Origin: Siderastrea siderea
Taxonomy: Eukaryota; Cnidaria; Anthozoa; Scleractinia; Rhizangiidae
DNA length: 64,000 nucleotides
Direction of reading: 5' to 3'
NCBI GenBank assembly: GCA_964030785.1
Contig: OZ034972.1
Location: 20,741,683-20,805,682 of the forward strand
A program made the position numbers and the translations under genes. Positions within the stretch are counted from its first letter, which is position 1. The number at the start of each line of letters is the position of its first letter. Below are positions 24,401 through 30,400 of the stretch, piece after piece. The notes under the pieces are model-generated. The model did not search any database. It was given only the letters and a program-made list of their open reading frames with translations, and was not told where the DNA came from.

Positions 24401-27400
24401 TGTCAGAACGTGATCACGACCAAAAATAAAACAAGAAAGCCTATTGGGCATTTTAACCGGCCATTCTGACCCTCCCCACCCCTAGGTTTCACAAATGTTA
24501 GCGCGATCCTCTATTTATACGAACCGGCGTGACGAAAAGTGTGATTGTGTGACACAATATTTTTACTTTTGCGTTACTGGATGACGTAATGTTTAAACTC
24601 TGATGACTCAGCTTATCTTTTTTATCGCTTTTATTTGTGCTGAAAAACGCAAATTCACTCATGGAAACGTTGAATGTCGATATAAATTCGTCCACAACTG
24701 AGAATGCTCACACAGCGACGACGAAGTTGTCTGTTGTGCCTAGACCTTAAATACAAACAGTGAACATAGCGGTAGAATCAAAATATAACGCTTGATAAAC
24801 ACGAGCTCGAGCAGATCGTCAGAGTATGGGGCACGTCAAGGCATATCTCATGACGTGATGTTTAATTCCGGTTTGCTAACCCGGGAATCCCCTTGCAAAA
24901 GTAAACAAACGAGCGGGGACGAAAGTCGCCCACGTCTTTGAAAGCTAACGCGCCTGTCGAGCCGCAATCGATTTCGCGCTCACTCCCTTGTTTTTCTTTT
25001 CCTTCACTATCTCTGAACGGAAAGAGAGACTGCTCGTAGCCTTTAGCGTACACCACACGCAAACCACACAAGTCCGTCGATAATATTCAGATATTTTCGT
25101 TCTTTCAATGCAGAAAGACTCGTAACACCTACCCTATTAATTGATCTCCTTATTAATGACGATTCCTTCGTATCAACTTCTCGCCTCAAATAAACACTGA
25201 TCTCTCTCCGTTCACAAGTCAGAACTATCATGTACTGACGGTGCAATCCACTAATATTGCATCATCATACTAGTACCAATTCCTTCTCTTCCTAGCCCAC
25301 GCCGGCAAAACGCAACTGTCCTTTTTGTCCGCTGCCAAATACAAGTTAGCCAATCAGAAACCTTACAATCCACTTCGCAAACCACCCCCCCCCATAAAAC
25401 GGCAAGGGAAACCCCCTCTCACGCAGCACAATATTACACCGCTCCTATACAAAACGCAACTTTCAAAGCAAATCACATTCACAGAAGCGTGATATGCTCC
25501 TGTCATTCACAAATCCTTCTGACTCCCACATTTTTACACCCTCAAAATGTCAATCCCAATAAAAAAATTCCTGCGCTAAAAAAATTTCACCATAACCACT
25601 AACTAGATCAGACAACACAGCCAATTTCGCATTCCATCCTATTAGCTGCTTTACTCAATTGCGCATGCGTTATACAAGACAAATACAAAAAACCCCAAAC
25701 TTAACAACCCTTCGTCGTTGATATCTTAAATACTGTAAATTAAAAGACAAGAACATACGAAGGTAACATTCAGCAGACTAATATGCGCATGCGTCTTATA
25801 TAAGACAGTACCGCTCTTGAGTACCCGTACCACAAGCTTTACAGCACTTTGTTCGTATGTTAAGCCAACTGACTATCTCGACAAAACCGTGCCCATTTTA
25901 TAAACCTGCGGTCGCCAAAGCGACGGCCGGTTAATAAAATACCACTGTAACATTATCCCAAAATTGTATCTCAAAATGCACCAGATTGCATCTCAACGCA
26001 CATTCATTTCAAAACATTTCCGGGGGAGACCATGCCCCCAGACCCCCTAGGAAGCTAATGGCCTTCGACCATGAGGGACTTCTCCCCCAAACGATAAATC
26101 CTAGATAGAACCCTGCTAGCAAGCGAAAAGAATACATTCTAATTCATCAGCATAACGTTTGGCGAGACTCTGATTTAAAAGTCGAATAAGGAATGAATAT
26201 TAATATTGTGCGGTTTTAATCGTTTCTTTAAAAATTTTCCCCCATTAAAATGATGTCAGCTAAGTCGTATTCATAAGATATTTCATATTAATTTAATTCT
26301 ATCAGTAACCCGTTGTAATCCATTGATTTTAGTTGTAAGTCCAAATTCACATGCCTTAAGTTGAATCTTTTTTTTTCGTGTTTTGTGATTGATAACTCTC
26401 TTATATTTGTAGCCAAATGAGATGATCATTCCTACCACAGAGACGGTTCGTCAGCGTTATTTCTTGGAGTTATTTCTGTGTCACGAGAAACCCTTGCTGC
26501 TGGTTGGTCCGACAGGAACAGGAAAATCCGCCATCACTAACAACTATATTCTTAGAATGCCTTCAGATAAGTACGTTTATTAGGATGAATTTAACTACGA
26601 CCTGTCTCTGGCCTTATTCTGTGGTCTCTTTCTATGATAAGCATAAGAGAATGATCGGTCGTTTTCTTTTGGCTATGATTATGTCGATCATAAGTACCCT
26701 TATGATTACGTTTTTGGGCGTCCCTACTAAGACATAAGTGACATAACAGCGTTATGTTTGTATTTATGATTATGATTATAATCATTATGTTGCCACTGGA
26801 AACCAGCCTAACGCTGATCTAGGCTAAAATGTTTAAAACTTCTAGATAGACACTAGCAGTAATTCGTAGCACAGTGCTTCAAACTAACTATTGATTTAAC
26901 GTCGCAAGGAACAACAACAATATTTTAATATAATTTCCCTTTTTTTCAGGTATATCGCTAATTTCATGAACTTTTCCGCCCAAACTACGTCAAACCAAAC
27001 TCAGGATATGATTCTATCCAAATTGGACAGGTATGTAATGTTAACTATTTTTAGGTTCTAGAACCCTTCTTTTGTGAGGTGGGTAAGGATTTGGCTTGGA
27101 GGCCTGTTTTAGTAGATTTGTTGCGCGAGAACCTGATGCGAATTTGTTTTAACCCTTTACCGTCTAAGGCAAATGCCAAGTTTTTCTAAATTGGCAACTA
27201 TGAACTGGTAGACCACATGTAATTAAAGGAGAAGGTCACTCCAGAAACCGTACATTTTTCGTACTCACCAATAAAAAGACCACACTGAGTTGAGTTACTG
27301 ACCGTTGTTTGAGCTTCCATAGTACATCCGATCCCAGTGAAATTCCTTTCCAAAGAAGCGAAAAATTCGTTATCGGGCGCCGCCATTTTGGATAGCGCTT

Positions 27401-30400
27401 AGGAGCCTGGCCACATATTCGTGACGTCAATTTATCCACATTGAAATTGGCGCGAAGCTCAAGCGATAGCTTTTCAGCTGCTCTCATTTCTTTGGCGCGG
27501 CCTGCCGTTGTGAACTGAAAAGGAAGCTTAAGCAGCCACGACGGCAACGCCAAGGAAAACTTCACTTAAAAAATGACTTCCAAACTTGTTCGCGATAGTT
27601 TCAACTCGTTCAATCTGTCATTCCGCCCAACTTGTCAGCTCCAAGATGTACCTTTGTATTCCGATACGATGGCTGCGCTCAAACCGTACTGTTTCGAGCC
27701 AGAACGTGCCAGTAATTCCGAGGACGATGAAAGTGGAGATGATTAAATGAAGGAACGGTTAGAAGGTACATTTTGGTGCACTTGTGAAAGATGTGAAGTC
27801 ATGCCGACTCCGAGGGAATGCGTTTGCTGTCGAGAGCAGCCAGAGTCGGAAAACAAAGATGGAAGGTACGCTTCGAATGAGTAAGAGTCGTATTTATTAA
27901 AGAAGAAATTTGTTATCACTTGTACATTGTTTTTAAAATTAATATGTGGCTAAAATCGAGCCGCAGTAGGTTTGTAGTCTTAATCTGAATTGTCTCTGTT
28001 TATTTTAATTTGCTGCTTGCAGTGAAATATGCAGGTATTTCTTGCGTCACAGAATACGAGGACTTCAGAATCTCTCTTGTGTGCTTAAATCCTTCTTCGG
28101 GTATTTCCACCCAGGAGTTGGTTTCAAAGCAGTCACCATTAAATTGCTCTTTAATAACGTAGACATTTTCCCGCAGTTTTTCGGGAAAGCCAAATCGCTT
28201 CTCATGGCGAAGCTGGTCGAGCCACTGCTTTACTAGGTCTGGATCTCACCTCTTTCCTTATCTTTTTCGGACATATTGCTTGTTTACCATTTACACGGGC
28301 AAACCGGTCGGTTTACCGTTTGGGTCGGTTTGGGCAAATTGGGCAACTGCATTAGACAGGTTAGGCAACTCGGAATAATCACCAAGAAGTTTCAAAGATT
28401 GTGAAGTCATTTTAAAAGTGACGTTTTCCTTCCCGTTAAGTTCCCTAAGTAATTGTTGTTGGGACAGAAAATGGTTGCGAGAGCCTGAAACTGGTATCAA
28501 AGATTAGGTTTGAACAAATGGTACACGAATTTCCGTTTGGAACATTCCGTCCGGAAAAACAGGACTACCTTTCAGACGTTCCGTTGCTCCCGGAAATTTT
28601 CCACTGGAACGACCCAAAAAGTCGTGTACCAATTATTTTCCAACCGGAATTGCCGGAAAGTTGTTGTAAATGGTAAACAACCATTGTTACAGTCTGGGAC
28701 TGTGTAAGCAAATACGACGGCGACGGCTGATGAGAACGTCACAAAACAAAAAGTTTAATTAGCAAAACAATGACTCTGTACGTGCGATACAGCTTTTGCT
28801 ACATTTCTTTGCTGTCCTCTGCAAAACAACAACTTGAAATGACCAAACTCAAAGTTTTATGTAGAACGTTTACACACGACAGTGAATTTTCCTTTTTCTA
28901 CCTGAACTGTAACGCCGTCCTTACAGAGTCAACTCCCGGATTGTTCGGCTACATTAGACAGATTCAACGAGTTGAAACTATCGCGAACAAGTTTGAAATA
29001 TTTGGAAGTCATTTTTAAAGTGACGTTTTCCTTGGCGTTGCCCTCGCGGTTGCTTAAGGTCCCTTTTCAGTTCACAACGGCACCGCGAAAAAGAAATGAG
29101 AGCAGCCGAAAAGCTATGCACTTGAAATTGGCCAGCTGCGTTTGAGCTTCGCGCCAATTTCAATGTGGACATATTGACGTCACGATATATGCGACCAGGC
29201 TCCTAAGCGCTATCCAAAATGGCGGCGCCCGATGACGAATGTTTTGCTCCTTTGGAGAGGAATTTCACTGTGATCGGATGCACTATGGAAGCTCAAACAA
29301 CGGTCAGTAACTCAACTCAGTGTGGTCTTTTTATTGGTGAGAACAAAAAATATACACTTTCTGGAGTGACCTTCTCCTTTAAGTAATTTCTGGGGTATGC
29401 TGTAACTTACACTAACAGGGATGGAGGAGGTCTCAGATTAGACTGAGAAGTGTCCAAAATGAAAAGCGAAAAGCTTTTAAAATTTTTTCGTATTCCTCAT
29501 ACATATTGGGTGTAGCCCTCAACTATAGCGAAAATTGGCAGCTCTCAGTGCACTGCTTGTTGTCAGATATCAACTTAAACCTAAAAGTACAAAGGAAAAT
29601 GTTCCAAAAATTAGAGGGGTGGTAAATCAAGTCTCATATAGGAGGGAGGTTCAATTTTATACCTTCAATGTGCAGATCTTTCCAAGATCTTTTGATCGTG
29701 CAAATTTCACACAAATTGACCAAAGATTGAGCATGTAATGGCATCTTGTGCCATATGGCACTATTGAGCGTTAAAGAGTTAAGGCTACCTGGTTAAGTCT
29801 TGTTCCCCACTTCATTTTCAGGCGGAAGCGTGGTGTGTATGGACCAGCTATCGGTAAGAAGGTTGTGGTGTTTGTGGATGATCTCAATATGCCAGCTAAG
29901 GAGAAGTATGGTGCCCAGCCCCCTATCGAGGTCCTGCGGCAGTGGATTGATCACGGATACTGGTTTGACAGGTAACTACGCTAGTTTAAAGAGAGATGGA
30001 TAAAGATATACTGGTTTGACAGGTAAAGACACTGTACAAGTTCTGGTTTTAGTGGTATAATTAGGTGAATTTGATGAACCAGCCACTGCTTAATCAAACG
30101 TACCATCAAAACGAACAAAAATATCAAGGAAAGAAAAGGTGACGGTTAAACTTGCTTATCCTTTGAACGCCATCTTTCTTTTTTCATTACAATGCGGCTG
30201 CTATAACAGGCCCACTTAGAAAACGAAAACGAAACCGCTTTGCAGAAGCAAGGAATTCCAACTTCAGCGATTTGATGACAGCAGTCCTGTAAGATATAAA
30301 GATACTGCAAATAGGTTCTTTAAGGTTATGGTGTTCCTCCTGTATAGAGGCAGTACTTTTGCCGGTTTTCAATGTAAAACAGAGTGGTGGAATGCCAGTC

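Follow-up and report, generated by a model that had tools for sequence, protein, structure and literature searches.

A probable non-autonomous Kolobok element with a KolX remnant resembling the P2X7 ballast domain in the coral Siderastrea siderea

A 2152-bp transposable element lies at positions 27227-29378 of a 64,000-nucleotide stretch of the Siderastrea siderea genome (contig OZ034972.1; the whole stretch is termed the window). It is very probably a KolX-bearing (Kol0) Kolobok transposon reduced by internal deletion to a non-autonomous copy, inserted at a TTAA beside a dynein heavy-chain exon. An earlier note, made from the sequence alone, had described a DNA transposon carrying a P2X7 ballast-type gene, and the TTAA sites and copies elsewhere in the genome bear this out. 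The same note proposed that a receptor-domain gene had come to sit between transposon ends; this part is not supported. The ballast-like gene is KolX, which belongs to the transposon itself as an accessory gene and was not captured from a receptor. Kolobok transposons are known to carry KolX as a second gene; it resembles the P2X7 ballast, which P2X7 is described as having gained from a Kolobok, and the published direction runs from transposon to receptor (Kojima and Bao 2022; PMC9587614). The element represents a previously undescribed family of a known type, the KolX-P2X7 link having been published already in 2022; no earlier description of this particular family was found in the open-licence papers searched. 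The many copies in which transposon ends bound the exon, and its pairing with a transposase far above chance, lend support from another genome to the published view of the P2X7 ballast as a domain of transposon-gene type. Automatic annotation may misread KolX-type exons as receptor genes.

Element structure and target sites

The features of the element, with their basis in brackets, are as follows.

27223..27226, no strand: left copy of the TTAA target site (sequence and flank comparison)
27227..27619, plus strand: left terminal inverted repeat, about 393 bp (blastn of element against window)
27669..27865, plus strand: KolX exon 1, P2X7 ballast-like, with WCxCxxC and CxCCR (homology to intact relatives)
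27866..28022, plus strand: probable KolX intron, GT...AG (sequence; homology in relatives also ends near 27865)
28023..28090, plus strand: KolX exon 2 remnant (homology visible to about 28090; similar stretch in loci L052 and L057)
28084..28245, minus strand: THAP domain remnant, the N-terminal part of a transposase, facing KolX (genome matches; related intact exons pass the Pfam THAP cut-off)
28279..28682, no strand: segment lacking in the short copies, for instance L003 (short inverted arms at its borders)
28957..29378, minus strand: right terminal inverted repeat, about 422 bp (blastn of element against window)
29379..29382, no strand: right copy of the TTAA target site (sequence and flank comparison)

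Kolobok elements follow a rule of a TTAA target and 5'-RR/YY-3' termini (PMC9587614, section 3). The present element is flanked by TTAA on each side and has the termini AGGAGAAGG ... CCTTCTCCT, i.e. AGG..CCT, and therefore fits this rule; AGGAGAAGGTCACTCCAGAAA is read inwards from both ends. The inverted repeats of about 0.4 kb reported earlier are confirmed, the two arms sharing 86% identity with gaps across 424 aligned positions (E about 7e-144; blastn, element against window). A related 318-bp miniature inverted-repeat transposable element at 59017-59334 of the window also lies between TTAA copies, has the same AGGAGAAGGTCACTCCAGAAA ends and is about 80% identical to the inverted repeats of the larger element.

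The same ends flank KolX elsewhere in the genome, as the earlier note had proposed to check: TTAA is present on both sides in the window and in 16 of the 20 other copies fetched. Among the exceptions, L016 carries TTTA at one end, and in L030, L032 and L034 one end is changed, missing or beyond the match. When the 16 TTAA-bounded copies and the window were compared, mean agreement was 90% in the 30 bp inside the ends and 26% in the 30 bp outside; flanks beyond TTAA thus agree at chance level only. The maximum outside agreement, 100%, belongs to L028 (C11:32551690-32553931) and L029 (C11:32680443-32682689), two copies some 129 kb from each other whose shared flanks mark them as a segmental duplication and not as separate insertions. 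The stretch at about 28277-28683 contains a 100-bp piece 75% like 28940-29039, and the longer copies L002, L004 and L007 show a different arrangement of pieces from it; it is a probable nested insertion or rearrangement. No transposase was recognised by eye among the reading frames of at least 110 residues in L009-L014.

KolX and its shared stop codon

The cysteine pattern noted earlier (WCxC..C, CxCCR, then C(V)T.....F) is present as WCTCERC and CVCCR within 27747-27865 and as CVTEYEDF within 28023-28090, past the GT...AG interval. Read through its interruptions, KolX matches 149 proteins at E<=0.001 (152 candidates), the best at 1e-39. Of these, 24 were fetched; database entries are open frames by construction, and intact KolX exons occur among them, for example in P0001, which has no stop where the window has TAA. 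FWCTC..C and ECVCCRE are nearly invariant in an alignment of 12 relatives. The P2X channel family gave no match in the six element pieces scanned (not every frame).

Compared with intact relatives, exon 1 is interrupted by a TAA in frame at 27744-27746, and its frame is broken close to the 3' end. The gene had been called decayed; its frame is indeed broken, but decay of this copy is rejected as the cause, with the TAA at the same KolX position in all 23 other copies examined (L002, L004, L007 and L015-L034). The 3' end of exon 1 has the same length as in the window in 18 of the 21 copies that reach it, being one base shorter in L019 and carrying extra bases in L016 and L021. In L024, L027, L028 and L029, identity to the window copy in exon 1 drops to 77-80%, yet all four have the stop; the break therefore predates the spread of their subfamilies.

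The ratio of nonsynonymous to synonymous change (dN/dS) in exon 1 was compared within and between families. Within the window family the ratio is 0.75 (221/276 pairs; 0.83 from 271/276 pairs in an earlier script version), and within a second group of related loci, termed the L050 type and described below, it is 0.36 (35/45 pairs). Between the two it is about 0.09 (176/240 pairs), a rough value because dS, at 2.9, is near saturation. KolX evolves almost neutrally within the window family and, on this rough measure, is constrained between families. The between-family constraint suggests that the full-length transposon needs KolX; the portions of PMC9587614 drawn on here state no function for it.

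A THAP remnant facing KolX

A second coding remnant, not recognised in the earlier note, lies on the opposite strand. The piece 28245-28084 has 110 genome matches at E<=0.001 (139/139 candidates scored). Some are close copies; the others form a second group, about 50-60% identical across residues 2-43, from which 12 loci (L050-L061) were fetched. Having been chosen by their THAP match, all of these have a THAP-like exon. KolX exon-1 sequence is also present in 10 of the 12, always on the strand opposite the THAP exon, and was not found in L054 and L058. The Pfam THAP cut-off is passed by all three of the relatives' exons scanned, and the THAP exon of relatives extends to SVPTIF, resembling the AVPTIF box. 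L050-type THAP exons are often open, and the ends of these elements resemble those in the window; in 10 of 13 loci TTAA adjoins one matched end or both, the latter in two. Long proteins starting with the THAP exon were not found at E<=1e-5 among 12 candidates.

Putative full-length relatives and KolX-transposase pairs

Genome searches yielded at least 150 matches to KolX exon 1 (150 of 235 candidates scored), at least 150 to the THAP exon (150 of 437) and at least 106 to the transposase relative P0142 (100 of 530), all such match counts being lower bounds. A convergent KolX-THAP pair about 3.4 kb apart lies at C14:5006215-5010082 (L063), where 1.9 kb was read. Its transposase-like sequence has 27 relatives at E<=1e-5 (280 candidates). 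The motifs GGDGRCDSPG, ATDRH and NFDVWH occur in these database relatives and SVPTIF/AVPTLF in genome pieces; NFDVWH fits the DxxH signature named in PMC9587614. A predicted structure of P0142 was discarded, its mean predicted local distance difference test score (pLDDT) being 36.4. NCBIfam returned nothing useful.

A P0142-type transposase match lies within 30 kb of 25 of the 150 listed KolX matches, and within 12 kb of 22. Under random placement, 1.2 KolX matches on average, and never more than six, had a transposase neighbour (1000 trials). Each of the 25 has at least one convergent transposase, and one has in addition a non-convergent neighbour that comes from the next pair. Only 34 of the 106 transposase matches are near a listed KolX match, and Kolobok lineages with no recognisable KolX are therefore probably present too. 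In seven pairs the KolX and transposase matches stand 2880-2887 bp apart (C1:72365129, C3:12148572, C3:35585872, C5:45684269, C5:48060204, C7:32109173 and C9:6596191). Their KolX matches have one TGA and one TAA each, which may reflect either an intron within the match or a break common to all seven, and 583-residue open frames contain five of the seven transposase matches; these pairs are probably a young full-length family.

Proposed origin and points against it

The window copy contains no transposase, and is thus non-autonomous. A full-length relative would carry two convergent genes, KolX at one end and the gene for a THAP-domain DDE transposase at the opposite end. Through loss of the middle, KolX exon 1 and the beginning of exon 2 would have come to face a THAP stump, with the KolX frame already broken in the founder of the window family. 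This family may then have multiplied through the transposase of full-length relatives (and their KolX, if needed) acting in trans on intact ends. Such a transposase would bind the long ends, cut at TTAA and insert the element at a new TTAA, with the window copy likely contributing its ends only.

Several observations weigh against this assignment. The THAP-domain DDD/E transposase that marks the group is lacking from the window copy, and the window piece 28084-28245 itself has no Pfam THAP match. Putative full-length relatives are represented by pairs of matches and by one partly read transposase locus, L063, which is frameshifted, its transposase-like pieces lying in different frames. The only family matched by the transposase core is Pfam PF20700 (Mutator-like), with scores under the cut-off, in 3 of 16 relatives. 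No listed transposase lies near 125 of the 150 KolX matches, with 100 of 530 transposase candidates scored. The search against the P2X7 intracellular domain family that the earlier note had suggested did match P2RX7_C (PF20478), with 17 bits for the exon-1 piece (E=0.0057) and 19.5 bits for the read-through (E=0.001), but both scores are under the curated cut-off of 23.5 bits. Solved P2X7 chains were not found by sequence with the fragment or an exon-1 profile, which gave chance-level matches only. The near-saturated dS between families belongs with these points.

Alternative explanations

Short elements might instead be selected for truncated THAP or KolX products, or for paired antisense transcripts, that restrain full-length Kolobok. 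The KP deletion derivative restrains the P element and provides an analogue. The layout in which the 5' part of KolX faces the 5' part of the THAP gene is kept in two diverged families, and in the L050 type the THAP exons are often open and KolX exon 1 has a dN/dS of 0.36, though this value may merely reflect recent descent from constrained sources. The window family itself argues the other way, with the stop in 23 of 23 other copies and near-neutral change (0.75), and selection for restraint is on balance improbable.

More doubtful still, to the point of being very unlikely, is the capture of a host gene for a P2X7-type receptor domain by a transposon that went on to spread it. In favour of this view, an exon with the ballast cysteine pattern lies between transposon ends. 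KolX, however, is described as regularly present in Kol0 Kolobok elements across several animal phyla (PMC9587614), occupies the same place in two diverged families and is convergent with a Kolobok-type transposase at 25 of the 150 listed matches. Least credible of all is a piggyBac-type element with TTAA sites and a KolX-like gene, since the piggyBac proteins concerned lack most of the seven cysteines and RR/YY ends, here AGG..CCT, set Kolobok apart from piggyBac (PMC9587614). In addition, the gene opposite KolX in relatives encodes a THAP domain, and the convergent transposase is of Kolobok type.

Genomic setting

A dynein heavy-chain exon begins about 0.43 kb downstream of the Kolobok-type element. 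The frame 29775-29975 matches Pfam AAA_7, of the dynein motor region, from residue 13 on (E=3.9e-26), and a likely upstream exon near 26950-27031 was recognised by eye only. The element would accordingly appear to lie inside an intron of the dynein gene.

Comparison with known systems

The ballast-type domain has been found across animals, including cnidarians (Rump et al. 2020; PMC7016195); that paper's main text does not contain the string 'transpos'. The window element resembles the P2X7 ballast and NANOR-like proteins described there in how the first cysteine groups are ordered and spaced, and in C(I/V)T. It differs in that the third cysteine cluster (PSC) of the P2X7-type ballast is not seen in the KolX remnant, and in being a broken transposon gene. 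Section 11 of the same paper refers to an Ixodes reading frame in which a domain spelled 'TAHP' (probably THAP) precedes a ballast-type domain; this frame could be a fusion of the two Kolobok genes.

With the Kol0 Kolobok elements that carry KolX (PMC9587614), the window element shares TTAA, RR/YY ends and KolX with the ballast cysteine pattern; its relatives within the same genome also have a THAP transposase. It differs from them in lacking a transposase and most of both genes, in its broken KolX and in its long inverted repeats of about 0.4 kb. Xenopus Kolobok elements are described as having TTAA, ends of the form AGGRR and transposases that contain THAP, AVPTIF box, DDE and H2CH motifs; a full-length subfamily has the terminus AGGAGAAGG (table in PMC6004289), identical to the window element in its first nine bases. 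The Xenopus T2-type MITEs and Kolobok (PMC6004289) likewise combine TTAA and AGGRR ends with non-autonomous spread, whereas the window copy retains coding remnants of both KolX and THAP.
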